IMG/VR virus record: IMGVR_UViG_3300021962_000227
Span: 1 to 41,416 of that record
Strand: one strand, 5' to 3'
From: a virus
Length of the DNA: 41,416 nucleotides
Shown here: piece after piece, positions 1 to 40,502 of the stretch
Layout of the letters: each line of letters opens with the position of its first letter
Position numbering within the stretch: position 1 is the stretch's first letter
The notes under the pieces: model-generated
The model's input: the letters and a program-made list of their open reading frames with translations, nothing else
What the model was told of the DNA's origin: nothing
The model's database searches: none
Translations under genes and position numbers: made by a program

Positions 1-1537
1 AGGTACTGGAGTTGGCTATTCGGTCCAACAACATCAAATTGAAAAACTACCTGAGATTAGAAAACCTAATTATGATCGTAAGAAAAGGTATGTCGTGCAA
101 GACAGTATTATCGGATGGGCAGACGCCATCAAAACCTTATTTAAATCGTACACGGGAGAATTAACTTCGCATGTTCAATTTGATCTATCCGATATTAGAC
201 AGAAGGGAGCATTGCTTGTAACAGCTGGAGGTAAAGCACCAGGACCAGAACCATTAAGATTAGCATTAGTAAAAATAGAAGCTATATTACGTGAAAAAGA
301 AGATAGATCAAAACTTACGGATATTGAGTGCCATGACATTCAATGTCACATTGCGGATGCAGTATTGGCTGGAGGTATTAGGCGTGCTGCCATGATCAGT
401 TTATTTGATCTTGACTCTGATGCAATGTTAAACTGTAAAGCTGGTAACTGGTGGGAGAACAATCCACAAAGAGGTAGAGCTAATAACTCTGTTGTTTTAT
501 TACGCCATAAGATTGATAAGAAAACATTTGATAAAGTATGGGAACGTATTGAGGCATCAGGATCTGGTGAACCTGGAATTTATTTAACTAATGATAAAGA
601 TTGGGGAACTAATCCATGTTGCGAGATTGCACTCCGCCCATATCAGTTTTGTAATTTAACTGAGATCAATATGGCTGATATTGAAAGTCAAGAAGATTTT
701 AATGCAAGAGCATCAGCCGCATCATTCTTAGGTACATTGCAAGCATCATACTCAGACTTCCATTATCTACGTGATATATGGAGAAAGAATACAGAAAAAG
801 ACGCATTACTTGGAGTATCAATGACAGGTATTGCTTCAAAGTCTAACTTAGAATTAAATTATGAAGAAGCTGCACAAGTTGTTAAAGACACAAACAATGT
901 TATTTCTGCTGCGCTTGGAATTAATAAAGCTGCGCGTACAACCGCTGTTAAACCAGCTGGGACAACTTCTCTGGTACTTGGCACTAGTAGTGGGATTCAC
1001 GCTTGGCATAATGATTATTATATTCGCCGTATGCGATTAGGCAAGAATGAAGCAATCTATTCTTATCTTGCAATAAACCATCCAGAACTGTTAGAAGATG
1101 AATATTTTAATCCAACATCGCAGTCAGTTATTTCTGTTCCACAGAAGTCTCCAGATGGAGCTATAACAAGACATGAGTCTACATTAGATCTATTAGAAAG
1201 AGTTAAGCTAATCTCTAAAGATTGGGTTAAACAAGGACATTCAAAAGGCAATAATACACATAATGTTTCATGTACTGTTTCTGTTCGTGATGATGAATGG
1301 AAAATTATTGGTGAATGGATGTGGGCAAATAAGGAATACTATAATGGATTATCTGTATTGCCGTATCATGGTGGAACATACAAGCAAACTCCATTTGAAG
1401 ATTGTACCAAAGAAGTTTACGAAGAAATGATGGCTACATTAAAGAATGTAGATCTTTCAAAAGTAATTGAGATTCAAGACAATACTAACTTTGTTGACGC
1501 TGCTGCTTGTGGCGGTGGTAATTGCGAAATAACTTAA
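1..1537 (+). CDS. nrdJ: Adenosylcobalamin-dependent (class II) ribonucleoside-triphosphate reductase, 5'-truncated
   Basis: It reduces ribonucleotides to deoxyribonucleotides for phage DNA synthesis. The frame is open from base 2, beginning GTGVGYSV, so the true start lies outside the window; the GTG at 95 is internal. The core motif NPCCEI (Cys codon 617-619, Glu codon 623-625) and the Cys of FCNLTEIN (650-652) have the same 11-residue spacing as C408 and C419 of the Lactobacillus leichmannii enzyme, with Glu in the E410 place. The usual Gly after the first Cys is Cys here. Further family landmarks are GGIRRAAMISLFD, KPAGTTSLVLGTSSGIHAWH and a C-terminal CX4C pair (CGGGNC) that would relay electrons from thioredoxin. 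It is the first visible gene of a short plus-strand operon. The N-terminal partner cysteine lies outside the window and cannot be checked. Confidence 0.95.
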   Translation, partial: GTGVGYSVQQHQIEKLPEIRKPNYDRKKRYVVQDSIIGWADAIKTLFKSYTGELTSHVQFDLSDIRQKGALLVTAGGKAPGPEPLRLALVKIEAILREKEDRSKLTDIECHDIQCHIADAVLAGGIRRAAMISLFDLDSDAMLNCKAGNWWENNPQRGRANNSVVLLRHKIDKKTFDKVWERIEASGSGEPGIYLTNDKDWGTNPCCEIALRPYQFCNLTEINMADIESQEDFNARASAASFLGTLQASYSDFHYLRDIWRKNTEKDALLGVSMTGIASKSNLELNYEEAAQVVKDTNNVISAALGINKAARTTAVKPAGTTSLVLGTSSGIHAWHNDYYIRRMRLGKNEAIYSYLAINHPELLEDEYFNPTSQSVISVPQKSPDGAITRHESTLDLLERVKLISKDWVKQGHSKGNNTHNVSCTVSVRDDEWKIIGEWMWANKEYYNGLSVLPYHGGTYKQTPFEDCTKEVYEEMMATLKNVDLSKVIEIQDNTNFVDAAACGGGNCEIT

Positions 1538-11075: not shown

Positions 11076-12524
11076 TTAAGGTAATGTTGGTAATGTTCCA
11101 CCTATAAAAGATGACAATTCAGTTGGATTAGTTATCCCTTCAGTTCCAGGTACAGGGTCTCCATATTTGTCCCACACCGACCATCTACCATTTTTCAATC
11201 CAAATGTATAACCTCCTTTAGTTACAACTCCTTTTTTACTTTTAATTACATTTCTTATTCTATCATTAAAAGCTTTTTGATTTTTTTGTGTTGCTGTTTC
11301 GCTTTCTTCACCTTTTCCACCTTTACCACCTTTGTTAGAATTATATATTGTTCTATCTTCTACCTTAGTATCTTTATCCCAATATACAGTTTTATCTCCT
11401 TCTTTCGTTTTATGTAAGTTAGAGGTAACTTTACCCCAAGCATCTTCAACCAATAGGTTTGTTAAAATTTCTTTTTTATTTGGGCTAGTTTTAAAGGTTT
11501 CGTCATAGTAGTGCACGTCTTTACCTAATGTGCAATTAACAAAAGCTCTTAAGTCGGCTTCTTTACCAGCTTTTAAGAATGCGGATGCTTTAATCTCGGC
11601 TTGTTTGCTAAGTTCATGTTTTATGCCGTCTTCATCTAGCCTTTGACCTTCTCCTAATTGGTATTGGCCAACGTCTTTTCCGGACTTATCTAACACAGTA
11701 AGTTTTACCTTTTCTACATCCTGTTTTAAATATTTTTGCAATATTTTATCGGATTTTTCATCGTAGAATACTTTATTAGCAGTTTTAACCCACTCGTCGT
11801 TGTTTATTACTTTTTGTAAATATGTACCAGCGCCACCTTCATCGGACGCAAGATAAGAAGAAGCATCAACTATATTCTCATATTGTTCTCCATTAGCTCC
11901 CTCTGCTTTAATACGTAATTTAAATGTGTCACCTAAATCTTCAATGTCAATAGAATGGCTTTTATATTTTTGACTAGTACCGCTCATGACATCTAGAGCC
12001 ATAGTTCTATGCGGGATTTCATCAGGAGAACCATTTACAACCATTCCACCAGGGGTGCCATAAGCTTCTGGACTTAAGTTGTCTCTATAAGAAGCAGTTT
12101 CCCCAGCAAATGTTTGAGCAAATTTGCCAGCATTGTTCATAAATGAATCTGCTTGCCTAATAGTATCTAAATACAATGATCGTTTTGATGGGTTAGTTTC
12201 GTTCAAAAGAGCAATCCTAGCATCTGCGGCAGCTGCAATTTTGGTTTGTATTAATCCCCTTATCTTATCATCTACCTCTTTGTTAGATACTTTATTTTTT
12301 TCAGACCAGTTTGATAATTTGTCATTGTACAAAAGATCTGTTTCGTTCTTTTGCTGTTGAAGTTTCTTAAGCGATAATCGTTCTTCTTTCTCCTCTTCTC
12401 TTCTTCTTTCGCCTGCTGTTATTAAACCTTGAGCGATTGATTGAGACATATTTAATATACCCTGAGATAACTTGTCGTACCCAGCGTTCATATTTATTAT
12501 AGGAGGATTTTCATAATATCCCAT
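11076..12524 (-). CDS. Putative internal virion protein (T7 gp15-like by position)
   Basis: This 482-residue protein has a helical N-terminal half. A strongly charged coiled coil with several Arg/Glu runs covers residues 35-100 (ERRREEEKEERLSL). A mixed, more strand-like domain and a Gly/Lys-rich linker (GGKGGKGEE) precede a short C-terminal domain. No signal peptide, transmembrane segment or catalytic motif is seen. It lies between the 223-aa protein and the giant protein, with gaps of 16 to 18 bases, so all three are probably co-transcribed. In T7-type phages the three proteins in this order build the ejection channel. Sequence similarity to gp15 is not visible by eye, so the role rests on context. 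Confidence 0.6.
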   Translation of the reverse strand: MGYYENPPIINMNAGYDKLSQGILNMSQSIAQGLITAGERRREEEKEERLSLKKLQQQKNETDLLYNDKLSNWSEKNKVSNKEVDDKIRGLIQTKIAAAADARIALLNETNPSKRSLYLDTIRQADSFMNNAGKFAQTFAGETASYRDNLSPEAYGTPGGMVVNGSPDEIPHRTMALDVMSGTSQKYKSHSIDIEDLGDTFKLRIKAEGANGEQYENIVDASSYLASDEGGAGTYLQKVINNDEWVKTANKVFYDEKSDKILQKYLKQDVEKVKLTVLDKSGKDVGQYQLGEGQRLDEDGIKHELSKQAEIKASAFLKAGKEADLRAFVNCTLGKDVHYYDETFKTSPNKKEILTNLLVEDAWGKVTSNLHKTKEGDKTVYWDKDTKVEDRTIYNSNKGGKGGKGEESETATQKNQKAFNDRIRNVIKSKKGVVTKGGYTFGLKNGRWSVWDKYGDPVPGTEGITNPTELSSFIGGTLPTLP

Positions 12525-13648: not shown

Positions 13649-15220
13649 TTAGTATGATGATTCCACATATTCCGTAGAGCAAGCATATACTTCGCCTTGG
13701 TATGTGTAAAACGAATTATTTAGACTTAGTGTGCAGGTTGCATAGATGCCTTTAATACCGGACATTGACTGACCCCACACTATATCTCCATTTCCAGGAG
13801 ATGTATTATTAAATATATTTGCAAAATACTTGCTTTCTTTTTGTTTAAAATTATTAGTAAACAAAGAAAGTTCTATTGACGCTAAAGACTGCGAGGTAGT
13901 CGCAGGCAATATAGGAATAGCTGTATCGGTGTTTGTTGTTAAGGAAGACACTTCCCACCCAGGAGTACCTTCATAGTTTATAGTATTAAAATTCTTTATA
14001 GCGGAAGGGTTAGCATTGAATACGAACTTAACATATGAATCGTAAATTGTGCCGTAGAAACTTCCTCTATTTACATTAACAGAATAATGTTTCCATATAT
14101 TCCCAGATTTAAATGAATAGTAATTATTTAATAGCCCGTCCATATAATTTGGTATATAACTAAAGAAACTTGTCCACCCTAAAGAGTCTTCATCAAAAGC
14201 TAAGGTGTAATTAGGTAGTTTTTCTCCTCTGCCAAATGGCGAATATGCATTTGGTTGTATTGAAACTACATATTGTTTATTATGTATATCCCATCCACCA
14301 ATAATACGACCAGACGAACTAACCGATCCTAATTTATCTCTAAAAAAGTCAAGCATCCCATAAGATGAAATTTCTGTAATACCATCTTGTGATAATCTTA
14401 AAACTACATTTCTATTTTTATCAACAAAATATTTTCTATATCCATAAACCGCAAAACTTTCTGGATTCTTTGATATACCATAATTCCCAGCATAAGATTG
14501 TATTTGCCCAATTACTTGAGCACCAGAAGTGGTCATTGGTTGTCCATCTGCTGAATATACCGCGTCTTTATCTATTAAAGCTCTGCTAACCTTCATTTCT
14601 TGGAATATTATAAGGTTTGTATCTTCCGCATATAGCTTTTGAATACTACCATTTACCGGGTCAACAGATCTTGTTATATCTTCCGCAACAGAAAATTGGT
14701 TTGTATTATTTACACCAGTTCTAGAATTAAATATACCGGAATATATTAAGGATGTTGGTCTATTTAATTGAAAATTATTGTCCTCAACTATATAAGCTTT
14801 TACTCCGAAGTCTACACTTGTATTATTGTATCCTCCTCTGATTCTTGCTTCTTCGATATACCAATCATTTCCTAAATCATCATAAGCCGCAGGCACATAA
14901 GTAAAGTTAGTAATATCTCCAAACGTAAATAATGTCCCTGCTGCAATCGTAGTTTCAGTAGGGAACATTAAAGTTACATTTGCCCCAATAATTTGTTTTA
15001 TAATTAATGTATATGATTCTCCAAGATATGTGTAATATATTGCTTGCCCAGGTCCAGTATTTGCTTGAGCACTAGCTAAGACTATTGAAGTAACTCCAAC
15101 GCCAACCGCAGTAAGCAAACTGTTATCTCCAGAAGTTGGGCTAGGAAGCACGTCAACAACTGATTGCATTTTCTTTAACCAAAAAGAATTGAAATATTTT
15201 AATTCTATTGTTGCACTCAT
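13649..15220 (-). CDS. Tail nozzle/stabilization-type structural protein
   Basis: This 523-residue protein is rich in Asn, Ser, Tyr and beta-strand. Residues 170-370 contain repeated blade-like units, each pairing a strand with an aromatic turn, such as FAVYGYRKYFVDKNRNVV, GGWDIHNKQYVVSIQ and LAFDEDSLGWTSFFSY, suggesting a beta-propeller. This is the build of T7 gp12-type nozzle proteins. It has no signal peptide or catalytic motif. It follows the 1376-aa protein after a 32-base gap. The 1376-aa protein has the typical nozzle N-terminus, so the two may be successive parts of one nozzle. Confidence is high that it is a virion protein and moderate for the exact role. Confidence 0.65.
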   Translation of the reverse strand: MSATIELKYFNSFWLKKMQSVVDVLPSPTSGDNSLLTAVGVGVTSIVLASAQANTGPGQAIYYTYLGESYTLIIKQIIGANVTLMFPTETTIAAGTLFTFGDITNFTYVPAAYDDLGNDWYIEEARIRGGYNNTSVDFGVKAYIVEDNNFQLNRPTSLIYSGIFNSRTGVNNTNQFSVAEDITRSVDPVNGSIQKLYAEDTNLIIFQEMKVSRALIDKDAVYSADGQPMTTSGAQVIGQIQSYAGNYGISKNPESFAVYGYRKYFVDKNRNVVLRLSQDGITEISSYGMLDFFRDKLGSVSSSGRIIGGWDIHNKQYVVSIQPNAYSPFGRGEKLPNYTLAFDEDSLGWTSFFSYIPNYMDGLLNNYYSFKSGNIWKHYSVNVNRGSFYGTIYDSYVKFVFNANPSAIKNFNTINYEGTPGWEVSSLTTNTDTAIPILPATTSQSLASIELSLFTNNFKQKESKYFANIFNNTSPGNGDIVWGQSMSGIKGIYATCTLSLNNSFYTYQGEVYACSTEYVESSY

Positions 15221-15252
15221 ATATTATAATTACTTGTTTTATTTATTTTTTA

Positions 15253-18200
15253 TTAATAACAATCAGAAGACCTAAAATATCCTTCATACGTTGGTCCGCT
15301 TGCTCCACCAGCTGTAACTGTTGTTACATTGCCCGCTACATCTAAAAAAGTGCAATTAACATAATCCCCACTAGTCCAGCATTGGTCTGCAACACCGTAG
15401 TCGTCTATAAACCTTACTGAATACCCATTTTTAAGACCCCCAGTAACGGGAATTTGATTAAATTTATCATTACTGTCATAACTCAGAACAATGCCAGGCC
15501 CCCAGTCATTTGCAGTCCAAAAAGCCGCTATTTGACCAAATCCTTCAAATGTTCCGTCTTCTTTCACATATCCACCTGGGTAAGCGTTAAACCCGCTGCT
15601 ATTATCAGCACCCGTATTAGGGGCTTGCCAATAACCTGTTCCTGGAATTTTCATGTTACCACCTGAAATACAGTTAAGATTACAGCGTTCCCCAGTCCAT
15701 GGAATTCTCCAACCACCAGGTGTAAATACTTTTGTAGGCAGAGAAGGATTCCATCCGGCATACTCGCCTCTTATAGCATATCCATTATATAATTTTCCGT
15801 AAATAGCCTCATTTGCTGGATTAAAATTATAATAACACCAAGCAGCCGAAGTTACATTTGCCCAGTCGGTAGCATTTGTTATTTGTGGAATTTCCGATCC
15901 ATCTTGAAAATACCTACTATTGTAGTTTGCTGTAGTCCATTTTCTACCATTACAAGAAGTAATATTGCCTAAAGATACATTAACTTGACAGGTAGCTTCT
16001 CTAGATCTATATTTTATAGAGGAATTCGTAACGGGGTTCCCACTTGTTGAAACAGCGTCTTGAACCTGTACTACCAAATTAAATACTGCTGGTAAGGCCG
16101 GTAAGGCATTTGTCAAATATATTTCACCTGCTTTAGTTGTTGGATTAGTAGTTATACTAAAATAATTTTGCCACCCGCTAGTCGATCCAGAATTCAATAT
16201 GGTCCATCTAAGTTCCTCTTTTTTCAATGGAGTATGATATGCCCCATTTACTGCAGTAAGCGTATATATAGGCCCAGGAATCGGAGAAGAAGAAGTTAAA
16301 AAAACGTCTACAGGACAAGTAAATGGAGAGGTTATCACTGGAGCAACATTTTCTAACCGTCCATTAAATGAATATGAAACCGGTACAGTTTCGTTTTCAG
16401 GTATTAATGATAATGTAAATACAAAACTAGTGGCATTTGTATCATTTAAAAATACAAAATTAGTAGTTATATAAATCTTGTATTCATAATAGGGACTAAT
16501 TCCAGGAACTAAATTTGCCTCTAATCCAAAACTAGCGTCGCAATTAATTCCATTTAAATTAACCACTGAAAGGGTTGCCCCTGAAGAATTTATTGGAACA
16601 CCCGTTAAAGACAATGGATAGAATTCACCTGATATATATTTTGACGAATCATTTGGATTAGCCGACTCTTTGAATCCTACCCAACTTATTTCAGAAAGGC
16701 CAACAGCTCCTTCAAATCCTGTTAAAACGTCTGAATTTAAATCAGATATTAATCCGCTTGTCGATGTCTCCCAAAACAAATCCAATAAAGAATAATCTGG
16801 TTTTGTTTCGTAAACACTTAAGTAAGGTCGCATGTTGTTTGGATCCGTAGTATAATCTGGCGGAACTGGGTCTGGTATATTTTCTAAAGCTATCACCCCA
16901 ATACTATCTGTTGTTGAAATCCTAGCTACTAATGGATGTGTTTCTAATTGATAAAAATTATAAGCAGCAGATCCTTTTGGATTATCAATAGTGGTTGGTA
17001 AAAAACTTAAATCTGTAGATGTTGCAATAGCAATTGCAGTATCCGCTTTTTTAGATGGAAAATATTGTTGGTTATTTGGATTTGTAGAACCTATTGTTGG
17101 TCCCGAAACTAAATTGTTCTCAACTCTACCAAATAATTGAACGCTACTTCTATATAATTTCTGATCTGGTCCAACCTCTACTAAATCTCTTGGTATTTTA
17201 TTTATATTATCGTTTATTAGTACAATATGCGCAACACGACCATCCTCGTTTGTAGGGAAAATAGTAGTGTTTATTCCATTTTCGGTAGTGGCAGTTGACC
17301 CCGTATATTTAACTTCTGACCCATAGGTTTGCCCTTTTGGATAGCCGTTTAGCATACCGGGTAAATAAACATTATAATAATCTTGTTCTTGTTGTCTAAC
17401 AACAACCTTATAAGAATACCATCCTAATGGGTTTAAAGTATATACATATTTAATGTCATTTGGATCATTACCTGTGTCTCTTAGATATATATTATTTACC
17501 CTACCTGATGTTGTCAAAGTATATTGAGTACCATAAGCAGGAGGATTTGGGGACGGATCCGGTGATATATTTGTAATCTCAACATAATCAGTATATTGTC
17601 CTCTTAAGAATTCGTTCTTATTTGGCAAAGTTCCAGCATTAGCTGTAAACACATATGTTGTGTCTGTTATTGTAGTTGTGCCAGTTAGTGTAAATCCTGT
17701 AATTGATGTAGATTGAGCATATAGCCCAGGCTCTCCAATTGCTGGTTGTGGCGAAGCGTTAATAGGATATATAGTGCTATTAACTAAAACCGATATTGCA
17801 TTACCAAACCAGTCTTTTACAATTGGAGCATCTCCGCTGCTATAATAAGGTGAATATACGGTTGATCCACCATATACAATACCATTTGCACTTGTATTAC
17901 TAGTATCTAATGAAGACAAAATGACTGATGATTGTCTACCATATTTATCTGATAATACAAATCCAATCTGATACGTTCTATTTTGTTTTACGGTATGATT
18001 TGGGTACTCTATAAAGTTATAAGAATAATCTTGTTTTCTTGTTACAGAGACTTGATAATTTAATGATTTTGGGGCAGTGTGATTTTTTAAAAAATTCCCA
18101 TATACAATTCTATTACTAATAGATTCTTGAGCTAATGCTTTCACAGGAACCATGTCGTAAACTCTGGCCGTTTGATCTGTAGGTAAAGTTTTATATGGCT

Positions 18201-19383
18201 TCCTTGATTGGTAATCGTATATGTATATATTGTCTGTAGTATTATTTGAAAAGTCAGAATAAGGTATTGTCTCTACAGTTTGTATAGTCAAAGAGTCGGA
18301 CTCTTTATATAAAATATCAACAGCTTGAATCTTATATGATTGATTAGAGTTAGAAAGAATATCTGGGAATGATATTAATAGTTTTGCGTTGTTTATATTA
18401 TTTTCAAACCATTTTACAACAGTGCTTCGATATGCATCATCCTCATTGCCTTCAATAAAATATCCTTTTTGATTTGGAACATATGCTATTTGGGTAAACG
18501 GAGCCATTAATGAATATTCTCCATCGTCATATCTAAATCTATAGCTAAATCTAACGTATTTAGCTTTTAAGAATGACGGATCGCCTGGCCACAATGGATC
18601 ATCAGCTTTATCGCTCATTGTGGATATTAAGAAGGTTAGCTCTGAATTTATAGGAATGCTTACAGTAGCTGATACTACAACGCTACTTGAGCCTATGCTT
18701 TCGACTATTATAAAATCGTTACTGGTTATCCCTCCTCCAATTAAAGTCATTCCAATTTCTATCCCAGCTATACTTGCAACTGGTATTGTTACTTGCGCCG
18801 CTACAGCCGAAGTATTTTTAGTTTTTGCTACTTTTACTAAGGATATAGGGTCAACTGGCGCATATCTAGCTACCGATATTTGTTCTTCTCTTGTATAATA
18901 TGGTGATGTACTATCCGCGGGAAACGATAAAGCTGATTCAACATTTATTTTTCTTGGTTGATTATTATAATCTGTCCAAAAAAGTAAATTTTCAACTAAA
19001 TTAATCCCCGTTATAGGAGACGACTTAATAAAGTTTAAAAATGCGCCTTCCACTAGTATAGTATATAAGTTTGACTTAAAGTCATATACGGTTATTCTGT
19101 GGACAATAGGAGCGTTCACAATATTTCCTTCTGTTGTAATAAACTGAAATATACGGTTATTATTATTATCCATAAAATAACCAATACATTCAGCGCCAGT
19201 TAGAATATTAGGCGGATCTACCATCTCATTTCCAAGGATGTTCTGTAGAGTACCTATATCGCTATTCTCTGACTTTCCAATAGAAACATTTAAAGCTTCT
19301 CTATATTCCCCATTTGGTATAAGCCTATCGTCTAAATCTTGATTCATTTTAGACGATAGAAAACTATTTTTTATTTCTGCCAT
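15253..19383 (-). CDS. Large tail nozzle-type protein with cadherin-like and C-terminal FISUMP domain
   Basis: This is a 1376-residue protein. The N-terminus (residues 1-50: RLIPNGEYREALNVSIGKSE, then a GTLQNILGN segment) is the signature start of phage nozzle proteins. Propeller-like blades such as LLFWTDYNNQPRKIN follow. The middle is a long series of strand-rich domains. Residues about 1012-1135 look cadherin/Ig-like (APVITSPFTCPV to QVNVSLG). Residues about 1140-1330 match the Fibrobacter succinogenes major paralogous (FISUMP) pattern: AWCYYNFNPANEAIYGKLYN, GGWRIPWTGERC, GYWQAPNTGADNSSGFNAYP, GYSVRFIDD. This C-type-lectin-like domain is a good candidate for receptor binding at the tail tip. 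The last about 45 residues are Cys/Gly-rich. The gene is six bases from the gene before it. Confidence 0.75.
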   Translation of the reverse strand: MAEIKNSFLSSKMNQDLDDRLIPNGEYREALNVSIGKSENSDIGTLQNILGNEMVDPPNILTGAECIGYFMDNNNNRIFQFITTEGNIVNAPIVHRITVYDFKSNLYTILVEGAFLNFIKSSPITGINLVENLLFWTDYNNQPRKINVESALSFPADSTSPYYTREEQISVARYAPVDPISLVKVAKTKNTSAVAAQVTIPVASIAGIEIGMTLIGGGITSNDFIIVESIGSSSVVVSATVSIPINSELTFLISTMSDKADDPLWPGDPSFLKAKYVRFSYRFRYDDGEYSLMAPFTQIAYVPNQKGYFIEGNEDDAYRSTVVKWFENNINNAKLLISFPDILSNSNQSYKIQAVDILYKESDSLTIQTVETIPYSDFSNNTTDNIYIYDYQSRKPYKTLPTDQTARVYDMVPVKALAQESISNRIVYGNFLKNHTAPKSLNYQVSVTRKQDYSYNFIEYPNHTVKQNRTYQIGFVLSDKYGRQSSVILSSLDTSNTSANGIVYGGSTVYSPYYSSGDAPIVKDWFGNAISVLVNSTIYPINASPQPAIGEPGLYAQSTSITGFTLTGTTTITDTTYVFTANAGTLPNKNEFLRGQYTDYVEITNISPDPSPNPPAYGTQYTLTTSGRVNNIYLRDTGNDPNDIKYVYTLNPLGWYSYKVVVRQQEQDYYNVYLPGMLNGYPKGQTYGSEVKYTGSTATTENGINTTIFPTNEDGRVAHIVLINDNINKIPRDLVEVGPDQKLYRSSVQLFGRVENNLVSGPTIGSTNPNNQQYFPSKKADTAIAIATSTDLSFLPTTIDNPKGSAAYNFYQLETHPLVARISTTDSIGVIALENIPDPVPPDYTTDPNNMRPYLSVYETKPDYSLLDLFWETSTSGLISDLNSDVLTGFEGAVGLSEISWVGFKESANPNDSSKYISGEFYPLSLTGVPINSSGATLSVVNLNGINCDASFGLEANLVPGISPYYEYKIYITTNFVFLNDTNATSFVFTLSLIPENETVPVSYSFNGRLENVAPVITSPFTCPVDVFLTSSSPIPGPIYTLTAVNGAYHTPLKKEELRWTILNSGSTSGWQNYFSITTNPTTKAGEIYLTNALPALPAVFNLVVQVQDAVSTSGNPVTNSSIKYRSREATCQVNVSLGNITSCNGRKWTTANYNSRYFQDGSEIPQITNATDWANVTSAAWCYYNFNPANEAIYGKLYNGYAIRGEYAGWNPSLPTKVFTPGGWRIPWTGERCNLNCISGGNMKIPGTGYWQAPNTGADNSSGFNAYPGGYVKEDGTFEGFGQIAAFWTANDWGPGIVLSYDSNDKFNQIPVTGGLKNGYSVRFIDDYGVADQCWTSGDYVNCTFLDVAGNVTTVTAGGASGPTYEGYFRSSDCY

Positions 19384-20627: not shown

Positions 20628-21353
20628 TTAGCTTTTTGAATTAATACTTTCTGATTGTACCTGCTGTGCAGCTAATTGTACAACCTGAGGGTCTTTTATT
20701 ATTACTCCGGAATAAAGTAATATTCTAGTAATAATGTTTACTTGTTCTGTAGGGTGTAATTCAAAATTTGTAGAACCAGCAGGATTAGACACAGGGTCAT
20801 ATGTGGATGGATTAAATACATACTGATAGCTAGGTGGAGATGAAGTAAAATTCCATAATGGATCAGCAGGTTGCCTAATATAGGTGCATGTTAAGCCAGA
20901 TTGTATCGTTTTTGGGTAAACATATATTAATGGCCATCTGTAGTCATAAACAGGCCAATATGTAGATGGTTTTGTTAATGGAGACAGATTAAGCTCAAGC
21001 AATTCATTTGGCTGAACGTATTGGACCTCTTTCTCTTCATTGTAAATTACAGTACCAATTTTATAAAAATTTGGTATATTAGCTACACTAAAGCTACCAG
21101 CAGAATATGGAAGCGCATTAGACGTTGATAAAAATGGAGAAATTTTTTCTTCTAAATTTTTTACACGATTAGCAAACTCGTTATCATTTTCTGGAACTCT
21201 AAGTTGCTGATTCAAGTCTTCAAAATATTCATTAAAAATTTCAAGTTGGACTTGAGTTGCTGTTTTATTAAATTCATCTGGGGTCAAGTAACCTCTTTGC
21301 TCTTTATTCAGAATTAATAAAACTGTTCTATAAACTGTATTTACACTTACCAT
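20628..21353 (-). CDS. Probable head-tail connector/adaptor protein
   Basis: This 241-residue protein begins MVSVNTVYRTVLLILNKEQR, then FNKTATQVQLEIFNEYFEDL. The helical N-terminal domain is followed by a mixed domain with Pro- and Tyr-rich segments (WPVYDYRWPLIYVYPKTI) and a final helical stretch (VNIITRILLYSGVIIKDPQV). This layout of N-terminal helices, a beta domain and C-terminal helices is common in connector-ring proteins of short-tailed phages. It follows a terminator-like hairpin and starts the run of nozzle genes. It has no catalytic motif. The assignment is by position and general shape. Confidence 0.55.
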   Translation of the reverse strand: MVSVNTVYRTVLLILNKEQRGYLTPDEFNKTATQVQLEIFNEYFEDLNQQLRVPENDNEFANRVKNLEEKISPFLSTSNALPYSAGSFSVANIPNFYKIGTVIYNEEKEVQYVQPNELLELNLSPLTKPSTYWPVYDYRWPLIYVYPKTIQSGLTCTYIRQPADPLWNFTSSPPSYQYVFNPSTYDPVSNPAGSTNFELHPTEQVNIITRILLYSGVIIKDPQVVQLAAQQVQSESINSKS

Positions 21354-31444: not shown

Positions 31445-32167
31445 TTATTGAAAAAGGAATGAACCTGTTGAACTGTCTCCCCAAGGATCGTCCTCTACGT
31501 AACTACAATAATTACCCGTTGTTACATTGTTTCCATTACCGGATAAATCTGTTTTTAATTGGGAAAGACTTAACCCTTGCCCGACTAAAAGTATGGTATC
31601 AACATCAGGTATAAAATTTTCAACTGGTAATGTGAAACTAGAAGCCGTGCTAAATCTACCCACATTACTCCATTCAAAATTTGTAATTTCTCCTAATAAA
31701 ATTCCACCAGTATCCCTAGATCCAATAAATAATGGGTTGCCAAAATTACTGACCGGATCAGCGTTAAAGGTAAAGTTAGATACCCATTGACCATTGAAAG
31801 CAAAACTTATTTTAGGTCCTATTCTTTCTATACAGTAAAAATTCCAACTCTGAGAAACTACTCCAGGAACGGCTACTTGGACGCACAGGGTAGAGTCTAT
31901 ATAATATCTAAATATGTAACTAGGGGAACCTACACTACCTGCATTTAGCAAATAAGCGCTATGCGTTCTTAGATCTGTTCCGCATGAGAAAAATACATTA
32001 ACATTATCTACTGGGTTTGGATTTATTGCCCCACCCCACCACATAATTGTATAATCTCCATTAAGTGTTAAATCTGGACTATTTTGTATAACTGCGGTTA
32101 ATTGAGGTGTAACTCCTCCATTCGGAGTAGTTGCCCAGCCAATACCCATTCCTGCTCCCCATCCCAT
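31445..32167 (-). CDS. LamG/concanavalin A-like surface protein
   Basis: This 240-residue protein is strand-rich and Gly/Asn/Ser-rich. The segment about 25-170 reads as one LamG-type jelly roll: DYTIMWWGGAIN, an FRYYIDSTLCVQVAV strand pair, the characteristic SWNFYCIERIGPKISFAFNG, then GNPLFIGSRDTGGILLGEIT. Such domains bind sugars or form decorations on capsids and fibres. No signal peptide is present, in line with a virion protein. The ATG overlaps the upstream stop (TAATG), pairing it with the spike-base-like gene. Confidence 0.65.
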   Translation of the reverse strand: MGWGAGMGIGWATTPNGGVTPQLTAVIQNSPDLTLNGDYTIMWWGGAINPNPVDNVNVFFSCGTDLRTHSAYLLNAGSVGSPSYIFRYYIDSTLCVQVAVPGVVSQSWNFYCIERIGPKISFAFNGQWVSNFTFNADPVSNFGNPLFIGSRDTGGILLGEITNFEWSNVGRFSTASSFTLPVENFIPDVDTILLVGQGLSLSQLKTDLSGNGNNVTTGNYCSYVEDDPWGDSSTGSFLFQ

Positions 32168-35934: not shown

Positions 35935-36194
35935 TATAATACAACAACTACGTCTCCTAGTCTAATTACCTGATAAGTTTCTTTATCTACTTCTATTTTA
36001 TGACCAGCGTGTCTGTCATAGAATATTTCATCATTTTCTTTAACACCAACAACCTCATCGCCGATTTTAAGAACCTTAGCTCTAATATATCTAATGTCTT
36101 CTCTTTGGCTCTCAGCGAGCATTAACCCGCCTTTAGTTTTTGTGGTGCCTTCTTTTATTTTTTCTATTATCAAACATTTTCCAATCGCTCTCAT
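35934..36194 (-). CDS. groES: Co-chaperonin GroES (Cpn10)
   Basis: This 86-residue protein is a single Cpn10 fold and forms the lid on GroEL. It shows the mobile loop with GGLML (22-26, in place of GGIVL), then VLKIGDEVVGVKENDEIFYD for the central strands and the closing QVIRLGDVVVVL. It is about ten residues shorter than E. coli GroES (97), with a shortened roof hairpin. It lies after groEL, the reverse of the usual groES-groEL order, and is linked to it by a TAATG overlap. Confidence 0.88.
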   Translation of the reverse strand: MRAIGKCLIIEKIKEGTTKTKGGLMLAESQREDIRYIRAKVLKIGDEVVGVKENDEIFYDRHAGHKIEVDKETYQVIRLGDVVVVL

Positions 36195-37738
36195 TATGCT
36201 CTTAAGTTATTAATTACACAATCAGTTGATAATATAGTGGTCGCTACAGATACTGCATTTCTTAATGCGCTTTTTGTAACTAATAATGGATCAATAATAC
36301 CAGCTTCAACCATATTTACGGTTTCACCAGTTATTACATTTAATCCGTAACCTTTTTTAGATATGGATTCTAAAGGGGCGTGCTCTATACCGGCGTTGTC
36401 TAAAATTAATTTAAACGGTGCTCTAATAGCGTCTAGTAATATCACTTGTTCCTCCCCAAAAGCTTCTATATTGTGAGAAGCGTTTAATAATGCAATACCC
36501 CCTCCAGAAACAATACCTTCTTTAATAGCAGCTTTCGTCGCACAAATTGCATCTTCTATTCTGTCTGCTTTTTCTTTTAATTCTATTTCTGAATTAGCAC
36601 CAACTTTTACTATTGCTATTTTAGCTGTTAGTCTTGCTAATCTTTTTTCTAATTTAATAACTGTTCCGGCCGGATTGTTTTCTAATAATGATTTTTTAAT
36701 ATTATCTACAATTCCCATAACCTCTTCAGATGGCTCACCTACGTGTATTACCGTTTCTTCGTGGTTAGTTATACTTTTTACACAAGTACCCAACATTTCA
36801 GGTTGGATTAAATCTAAGTCATCACCTAGATCTTCGTTTATTAAAGTTGCTCCAGTTAATAAAGCCAAATCATCAAAAATTTCTTTTCTATTAATACCAA
36901 AAGTAGGTGCATTAATAACATTTATTTTTAAATTACCTTTTGACTTGTTCATCGCTAATGTTGCTAATGGAATTTGTTCCATATCCGCAACAATTAATAA
37001 TGATTTATTGTTTTTTATAATATATTCTAGCACTGATTGAACTTGCCTAATGTTTTCTATTGGTGTTTCTACTAATAGTACTAAAGGGTTATCAAGTTCT
37101 GCTGTTTTGTTTTTATGGTTTGTTATAAAATGAGAATTTGTTAAGCCCATATTACATTGTACCCCTTCAACAATTTGTAAGTTAGATTCCGCATCTGCTG
37201 ACGTTTCCATCATAACAACACCGGTATTCCCGACTGATCTAAAAGCATCTCCCACTAATTTACCTAGTACAGGATCATTGTTTGTAGATATAGTTGCAAC
37301 TTGGTCAATCATGTCGCCTTCCACTTCTATTTTGTTTTCCTCAAGGTATTCAACGACCTTGTTACACATGATCTCGATACCTTCTTTTACTTTTCTAGAA
37401 TGCGGGTCTTTTGATTTGTATGCCTCACTTAATATAGAATGAGCCAATACAGTAGCAGTAGTAGTTCCGTCGCCAGCTTCTCTAACGGTTTTTCTAGCAG
37501 CTTCTTTTAATAATGTAGCACCCATATTTTCAATAGGATCCAACAAAATAATTGAATCAGCAACTGATACACCGTCTTTTGTAATTACTGGTTTTCCACT
37601 AGAGTCCTCTAATAAAACACATTTACCACTTGCTCCAAGAGTAGAACTAACAGCTCGTGTTAATTTTTCTATTCCTGCAAATACTTTTTCACTAGCTTCT
37701 TTACCAAAGCTTAGGTTTTTAACGATTGCGTCTGACAT
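36194..37738 (-). CDS. groEL: Phage-encoded chaperonin GroEL (Cpn60)
   Basis: This 514-residue protein forms the folding chamber. ATP site: TKDGVSVAD (Asp55), GDGTTTATVLA (Asp90, E. coli D87) and the catalytic Asp396 in RIEDAICATKAAIKEGIV (E. coli D398), followed by SGGGIALL. The apical domain is present (residues about 190-370, with LLIVADMEQIPLATLAMN and NAPTFGINRKEIFDDLALLT). The C-terminus stops at NLRA, so the flexible GGM tail is absent. All three domains are intact, and it should be active. Distance from bacterial GroEL looks large. It precedes groES in one unit and probably folds phage capsid or tail proteins. Confidence 0.93.
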   Translation of the reverse strand: MSDAIVKNLSFGKEASEKVFAGIEKLTRAVSSTLGASGKCVLLEDSSGKPVITKDGVSVADSIILLDPIENMGATLLKEAARKTVREAGDGTTTATVLAHSILSEAYKSKDPHSRKVKEGIEIMCNKVVEYLEENKIEVEGDMIDQVATISTNNDPVLGKLVGDAFRSVGNTGVVMMETSADAESNLQIVEGVQCNMGLTNSHFITNHKNKTAELDNPLVLLVETPIENIRQVQSVLEYIIKNNKSLLIVADMEQIPLATLAMNKSKGNLKINVINAPTFGINRKEIFDDLALLTGATLINEDLGDDLDLIQPEMLGTCVKSITNHEETVIHVGEPSEEVMGIVDNIKKSLLENNPAGTVIKLEKRLARLTAKIAIVKVGANSEIELKEKADRIEDAICATKAAIKEGIVSGGGIALLNASHNIEAFGEEQVILLDAIRAPFKLILDNAGIEHAPLESISKKGYGLNVITGETVNMVEAGIIDPLLVTKSALRNAVSVATTILSTDCVINNLRA

Positions 37739-39051: not shown

Positions 39052-39243
39052 TTAAATTTTCTCTTTAAGTTTCAGCATAGTTTCTGTTATCTTTGTACTA
39101 CCTATATATACCGTAGCAATAGTTATCCATTGTGTTCCGTTTATTTTATCAAAATATAACGAAGCAGTAGCAATTAAAAAAACAAAAAAGGTCTTACTTA
39201 TTGCTTTACCAAAATACTTGTCTATAAATTCTTTATTGCTCAT
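39052..39243 (-). CDS. Second small membrane protein, holin or antiholin candidate
   Basis: The start is taken as the ATG at 39243, which overlaps the fibre gene stop (TAATG), giving 63 residues. It contains two hydrophobic stretches (ISKTFFVFLIATASLYF, about 15-31, and WITIATVYIGSTKI, about 39-52) and a charged end. It lies one base upstream of the other two-TM protein. The pair may act as holin and antiholin, or one may be unrelated; sequence alone does not decide. Confidence 0.6.
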   Translation of the reverse strand: MSNKEFIDKYFGKAISKTFFVFLIATASLYFDKINGTQWITIATVYIGSTKITETMLKLKEKI

Positions 39244-40502
39244 TAGTCTAATTGCTGCCATCCGCCATTTAAATAGCAATATATATGTTTAGTTGTTGTT
39301 CCAACTACAGCTATCATACCTTCTTGCTCTAATCCACCTGTAAATGGAAATGATGCTAATGGAGTAAGTTTTAATACGCTAGTTATATTTACTAATCCTG
39401 TTTGAAAATCTCCTCCAATTAATGGGTTGCCCGGCGAATTAGCTATGTATAACTTATTTGACTCTGTGGTAGTTGTAGTAGGACCTGCGCTATATCCTAT
39501 ATACACATTTTTAGTTGACGCCCCACCAGCAAATCTTCCGCTCCAATATCCAATTGCTGTATTCCCCTGCCCATTGGTAATTGTTGTTAGGGATGAAGAT
39601 CCAATAGCCACATTAGATATACTGGTTGTATTAAATAATGCTCCATTTCCAACCCCTATATTATCACTTACCGCTGTCCCAGCTGATAACACATTAACTC
39701 CAATTGCTACATTATTAGATCCACTTGAATTTGTATATAACGTTCCTGGCCCTAATGCTGTATTGCTTGAACCTAATTGATTTGATTGCAAAGCCGTTGC
39801 TCCTATAGCGGTATTTTGAATTCCTTCTGTATTCCCGTATAACGCTGCCCCTCCATAGGCGGTATTATTAGACCCAGACGTATTAGATCTAAGAGCACTT
39901 ACTCCAAATGACGTATTATTACCTATATTCCCTTTACCGTTATTCCATACAGTTAGATCCGTTTGGTTATATTCTAACCAAGGTATTAATGTTCCAGCTG
40001 GCCCCTGCGGTCCCATTGGCCCTTGAGGCCCTGTAGCACCAGTTGCCCCTGTAGCTCCTTGTGGTCCAGTTGCTCCCGCTGTTCCAGTTGCTCCAGTTGG
40101 TCCTTGCGGTCCCGTTGCTCCTTGAGAAGCTAGTAAGGCCCAGTGAGCAGTATCAGAAGCGGGATTAGTTGTTCCGGATGTTGCTAATATACAGAAGTAA
40201 GAAGCTCCGCCATATCCTACGGCATCATCGGCTACATAAGAAGTTCCTGACGCCCAAGATCCTTGCCAATTTAATCCAGCTGGCCCTATTGGTCCTGGAA
40301 CACCTTGCTCTCCTTGCGGACCCGTTGCTCCTGTTGGCCCTGTTGGACCTTGAGGGCCTGTCACACCTGCGTCCGCTAATAGCGTAATAAAATCAGACAC
40401 AAGGAATGACTTTGTTGGATTACCTGATTCGTTTCTTTTTGTACCAAGCAAAAAGTCATTTGACGCTATTGTCGCTTTTGGATAACTGTATATTATTGCC
40501 AT
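39243..40502 (-). CDS. Collagen-like tail fibre with adhesin-head repeats
   Basis: This is a 419-residue protein. An N-terminal anchor domain (residues 1-48, IYSYPKATIASNDFLLGTKR) is common in marine phage fibres. Two blocks of Gly-X-Y triplets follow (about 49-79 and 130-172), which form collagen-like trimer stalks. Between them is a module with NWQGSWASGTSYVADDAVGY that looks like a CBM5/12-type sugar-binding domain. The second half has about eight copies of a unit like NTAxGxxAL (about 195-320), as in trimeric adhesin heads. The end is a short WQQLD domain. It is likely a receptor-binding or tail-decorating fibre. The start ATG is preceded by an AT-only leader. Confidence 0.8.
   Translation of the reverse strand: MAIIYSYPKATIASNDFLLGTKRNESGNPTKSFLVSDFITLLADAGVTGPQGPTGPTGATGPQGEQGVPGPIGPAGLNWQGSWASGTSYVADDAVGYGGASYFCILATSGTTNPASDTAHWALLASQGATGPQGPTGATGTAGATGPQGATGATGATGPQGPMGPQGPAGTLIPWLEYNQTDLTVWNNGKGNIGNNTSFGVSALRSNTSGSNNTAYGGAALYGNTEGIQNTAIGATALQSNQLGSSNTALGPGTLYTNSSGSNNVAIGVNVLSAGTAVSDNIGVGNGALFNTTSISNVAIGSSSLTTITNGQGNTAIGYWSGRFAGGASTKNVYIGYSAGPTTTTTESNKLYIANSPGNPLIGGDFQTGLVNITSVLKLTPLASFPFTGGLEQEGMIAVVGTTTKHIYCYLNGGWQQLD

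Follow-up and report, generated by a model that had tools for sequence, protein, structure and literature searches.

A FISUMP domain as a probable exchangeable recognition module at the end of the first chain of a two-gene phage muzzle

The window analyzed here (the whole 41,416-nucleotide stretch of virus record IMGVR_UViG_3300021962_000227), from a crAssphage-like virus, encodes a tail muzzle spread over two genes, muzN and muzC, and the first of the two polypeptides ends in a FISUMP domain that probably serves as an exchangeable tail-tip module for receptor recognition. The open reading frame for MuzN (15253-19383, minus strand) comprises 1376 codons and its boundaries are exact. The features of the gene pair are as follows.

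15253..19383, minus strand: muzN, first muzzle polypeptide with a C-terminal FISUMP domain, 1376 aa
18856..19383, minus strand: MuzN aa 1-176, ring-joining segment and first propeller blades (PF25731; hhalign to crAss001 gp44 1-178, probability 93)
18580..18855, minus strand: MuzN aa 177-268, domain at the IG1 position (IG1 of gp44 is 163-292; PMC10172136)
16660..18576, minus strand: MuzN aa 270-908, region matching the IG2/crass domain (placed from the mapped ends)
15970..16659, minus strand: MuzN aa 909-1138, cadherin-like stalk, probably of two domains, with the module junction after it (sequence pattern, Foldseek)
15400..15951, minus strand: MuzN aa 1145-1328, FISUMP (Fib_succ_major) domain (PF09603 and TIGR02145 matches)
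15256..15381, minus strand: MuzN aa 1335-1376, short C-terminal tail (..GN...) common to FISUMP-bearing muzzles (alignments)
15221..15252, minus strand: 32-nt gap from the muzN stop to the muzC start; the frames differ
13649..15220, minus strand: muzC, 523 aa, remaining propeller and C-terminal part (PF25729; hhalign)

By its profile matches, the C-terminal domain of MuzN is a clear member of Fib_succ_major and a divergent FISUMP domain. Against Pfam PF09603 (Fib_succ_major; gathering score 33.9), the whole protein scored 72.8 bits (E 5.6e-20) and its C-terminal 239 aa alone 76.1 bits (E 5.7e-21), the latter running nearly end to end through the profile (positions 4-185 of 187). These scores exclude a chance match, and both the domain that a sequence-only reading of this DNA had placed at this C-terminus and the motifs it had quoted are present. 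The search with TIGR02145 (NCBIfam) that it had proposed also returned a match (33.6 bits, E 6e-08), but one about 8 bits short of the curated cut-off of 41.65. The C-type-lectin fold it had suggested was not confirmed and stays a link from the literature, where Fib_succ_major is connected to DUF1566 and C-type lectins. The C-terminal 239 aa gave no DUF1566 or lectin match in Pfam, and a Foldseek search of the PDB with a model of the FISUMP domain (pLDDT 68, pTM 0.68) had no match at E <= 0.001, its 50 best entries including nothing lectin-like. The model matched only that of another phage's FISUMP domain, in A0A6J5LVS1, a protein of an uncultured Caudovirales phage. The two share the predicted domain fold (35% identity; TM-score 0.62, relative to query length), on a different carrier of 878 aa. 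Sequence searches of the PDB with FISUMP, MuzN and MuzC profiles returned nothing useful.

The carrier of this domain resembles the crassvirus muzzle (crAss001 gp44; PF25731, PF25729) in its N-terminal part, its C-terminal part and its gene order. PF25731 (crAss_MUZ) matched MuzN at its N-terminus only (aa 13-151, 44.7 bits against a cut-off of 27), while PF25729 (crAss_MUZ_C) matched the next gene downstream, at 13649-15220 (aa 384-472, 48.4 bits against a cut-off of 27). Likewise, the start of phrog_14478 (PHROGs, 1474 positions) is matched by MuzN and its positions 923-1257 by MuzC. MuzC aa 172-430 aligns to crAss001 gp44 1034-1290 (hhalign, probability 96), and in a profile alignment with phi40:1, MuzN 1-492 corresponds to 1-397 and MuzC 122-472 to 876-1202. 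As IG2 with the crass domain occupies 318-1021 of gp44 (PMC10172136), the gene break would lie within the part corresponding to the distal IG2/crass insert, a placement that rests on the two mapped ends because the middle part of MuzN cannot be aligned by sequence. Insertions into this IG2/crass region are a described source of variation in muzzle length among crassviruses (PMC10172136).

In crAss001, phi40:1, elemoF and ctfjg026 the muzzle is one gene and one chain, unlike in the window phage, where there are two chains and the FISUMP domain and cadherin-like stalk end the first. Two genes with a short gap encode the muzzle in every relative that has both parts complete, and by parsimony, with the root assumed, the split appears to be derived in the clade of the window phage. 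Joining of the two products by stop-codon readthrough is ruled out by the differing frames on either side of the 32-nt gap and by the conservation of the break. The crassvirus muzzle is defined as a single polypeptide; here there are two genes, in different frames and kept in relatives, and we therefore speak of a split muzzle and not of a plain member of the crassvirus muzzle. The earlier description of the carrier as a tail nozzle protein accordingly holds for the kind of protein, a muzzle or nozzle at the tail tip, but MuzN is only its first part, with PF25729 in the next gene; what had been called the C-terminus of the nozzle is the end of MuzN but an internal point of the single-chain muzzle in other phages. 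In our searches of the open literature, neither a split muzzle nor one with FISUMP turned up.

A model of aa 270-1376 (mean pLDDT 64) was poor in its FISUMP part (pLDDT mostly 30-50) and more confident in the stalk, aa 909-1138 (mostly 70-94). Its best PDB matches by Foldseek were tandem cadherin domains, and aa 1012-1138 carry a cadherin-like sequence pattern; the top 50 PDB matches of the model did not include the crassvirus muzzle.

It is at the end of this stalk that related phages differ. We took as relatives the best 80 of 233 matches; their records are fragments, and 68 complete MuzN proteins could be compared. All 68 align to about residue 1138, after which the tails form groups that show no detectable similarity to one another: 26 tails of 460-826 aa, 17 of about 330 aa, 10 of about 98 aa, 7 of about 250 aa, 6 with FISUMP, and 2 singletons. 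Judged by these alignments, the junction bears at least five unrelated modules, FISUMP among them; representatives of the non-FISUMP modules had no match to any Pfam family. A comparison of C-termini among related phages had been proposed as a check, and it shows swapping: FISUMP is present on only 6 of the 68 complete muzzles, this junction carries at least four further modules unrelated to it in the rest of the set, and the domain is not common to every relative. If anything, FISUMP is over-represented in this set, because the query itself included a FISUMP pattern. On a portal tree (this and the MCP tree were built by a quick method), FISUMP occurs in two well-supported separate clades, one with the window, L003, L005 and L009 and the other with L004 and L069, of which L069 lies inside the clade of the largest module type; placing all modules on the tree needs 8 changes against a minimum of 5.

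Close genome pairs show how localized these differences are, with neighboring proteins 96-99.8% identical in pairs that differ at the module. L069 and L075, which carry FISUMP and the largest module type respectively, share 96% identity in MCP and 98% in the next protein but 34-55% in MuzN, and L030 and L036, also with different modules, share 99.8% in the upstream protein and 47% in the MuzN core. Even where both partners carry FISUMP, as in L069 and L004, DNA identity of about 87% up to muzN codon 920 gives way to a stretch without any blastn match that ends at the stop codon, and 89% identity returns 3 nt after it. FISUMP also changes faster than the muzzle core. Between L003 and L009, dN is 0.26 for FISUMP, 0.07-0.11 for the MuzN core and 0.06 for MuzC, and dN/dS is about 0.2 against 0.07-0.12, values that are rough as dS is near 1. 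A ratio of about 0.2 still represents purifying selection. Variable positions within FISUMP concentrate in two segments of the domain construct, 101-120 and 151-180, which are flanked by conserved framework motifs and also have low model confidence.

FISUMP domains also reach muzzles at other sites. Besides two further C-terminal FISUMP muzzles found in an IMG/VR profile scan (L130, L131), some muzzles have the domain inserted at the IG1 position (L082-L084, L151, L162), and where the muzzle is unsplit it can lie in the following gene, which begins 1-15 nt behind the muzzle stop codon (L137, L138, L145, L146). A 2052-aa virion structural protein (L152) also ends in this domain, and many other phage proteins carry it. 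The eight domains from muzzle C-termini group in a single clade (95*) of a tree built from 97 FISUMP domains, with the IG1-site and next-gene domains elsewhere in the tree, whose deep branches are weak. No other observation argues as strongly for a common function at the muzzle as this repeated arrival of the domain there or next to it. Two of the proteins encoded directly after unsplit muzzles (L137 7017-8891, L145 7509-8576) share an N-terminal motif, VYLD..LT..APDG.Y, perhaps a common attachment domain, and another phage protein (L136 6705-9113, 802 aa) has three consecutive FISUMP domains.

Taken in this light, the receptor binding that had been attributed to the nozzle-borne domain is the best reading, although FISUMP is found in numerous other proteins of phages and bacteria, so that its presence alone does not prove binding. 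MuzN would supply the first blades of the propeller together with the ring-joining segment and the distal IG2/crass region, and the remaining propeller and the C-terminal part would come from MuzC, the two chains presumably co-assembling into one muzzle. With the break in the distal insert, the C-terminus of MuzN would be free and would probably sit at the tail's far end, where a stalk of cadherin-like domains pointing away from the tail would hold an exchangeable tip, FISUMP in the window phage. This tip most likely binds a structure on the Bacteroidota cell surface, and binding may help decide host range and trigger muzzle opening; for the crass domain, contact with the cell and initiation of opening have been proposed (PMC10172136). 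Tail fibers on the docking hubs could nevertheless be the main receptor binders. We suggest more tentatively, and with some doubt, that the gene split made a dedicated socket at the tail tip, where the free end of a chain receives exchangeable, cassette-like recognition modules, so that the muzzle itself binds the receptor and recognition is coupled to channel opening. Host recognition by crassviruses and their relatives is largely open, with contact between muzzle and cell proposed only from structure so far. A clade with exchangeable muzzle ends, one of them a defined domain family, narrows the question to a single testable stretch of protein, and its members, in which the same genome backbone carries different tips, lend themselves naturally to comparison. 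It also suggests a route by which gene splitting inside a large insert gives a conserved machine part a variable end.

Phages commonly bear Ig-like and lectin-like decorations, and the FISUMP tip might accordingly act in non-specific adhesion or decoration (to glycans, mucus or biofilm) or as a muzzle shield, leaving the choice of receptor to the docking-hub tail fibers. The window does encode other candidate binding proteins, one collagen-like with a weak CBM5/12 match and one weakly LamG-like. We nonetheless consider this explanation unlikely, as both the exchange of modules between otherwise near-identical genomes and the faster change of FISUMP relative to the muzzle core are more typical of specific recognition. 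The modules could instead be structural or assembly elements of the muzzle tip that trim or cap the crass region or hold MuzC, their diversity being the product of drift. Some modules are indeed short (about 98 aa), all end at the muzN/muzC boundary, and the gap between the genes is well conserved; on the other hand, modules at one junction that range from 98 to 826 aa without detectable sequence similarity, and the arrival of FISUMP at other muzzle sites too, make such a role quite improbable.

Lectin-type or FISUMP-type domains on phage proteins have precedents. DUF1566/Fib_succ_major targets of diversity-generating retroelements (DGRs) have been linked to tropism in Bacuni phages (PMC8143477), and C-type-lectin tail fibers of Zeta crAss-like phages were linked to tropism by the authors who described them (PMC12386605). 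The window phage is like these in bearing a domain of this kind; the carriers differ, being a DGR-hypermutated other target protein or predicted trimeric fiber in those phages and the muzzle here, with no reverse transcriptase found. That FISUMP is itself a DGR target, as the Bacuni precedent (PMC8143477, PMC4159848) and the concentration of variable positions in two segments might suggest, is very hard to credit given that no reverse transcriptase (PF00078) was found in the 42 records searched (fragments, the window included), that the window has no template/variable repeat pair, and that the differences include indels and framework changes.

As a complete PF09603 domain, the FISUMP of MuzN is like the FISUMP/Fib_succ_major proteins of Bacteroidota and Fibrobacter, and its closest bacterial counterparts in a genome scan were from Bacteroidota, often Flavobacteriales or Chitinophagaceae, at 35-38% identity. 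The bacterial proteins we found are mostly short and frequently stand in tandem arrays, unlike the C-terminal tail-protein module of the window, and the muzzle C-terminal domains form a clade separate from the bacterial ones (100/99* in an unrooted tree). The suggestion that the domain was taken from a host surface protein is thus unproven: the genome scan gave no close bacterial homologue that would indicate recent capture, and at this level of identity, with a separate phage clade in an unrooted tree, an old exchange with Bacteroidota in either direction is plausible.

Several other genes of the window, most of them on the minus strand, deserve mention. Upstream of the muzzle gene pair, 20628-21353 (minus) encodes a 241-aa virion protein (phrog_14543) that is more divergent than its neighbors in several close genome pairs. 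The 482-aa product of 11076-12524 (minus), with a weak FlgD Ig-like match, is possibly another variable adhesin, because it is 48% identical to its L005 counterpart against 92% for the portal. The collagen-like repeats and weak CBM5/12 match belong to a 419-aa protein (39243-40502, minus), and the weak LamG/concanavalin-like match to one of 240 aa (31445-32167, minus). The product of 95-1537 (plus) has a ribonucleotide reductase barrel domain and also matches, below threshold, the insertion domain of B12-dependent enzymes, and 36194-37738 (minus) encodes a 514-aa chaperonin that belongs to the Cpn60/GroEL family (PF00118, 190 bits).
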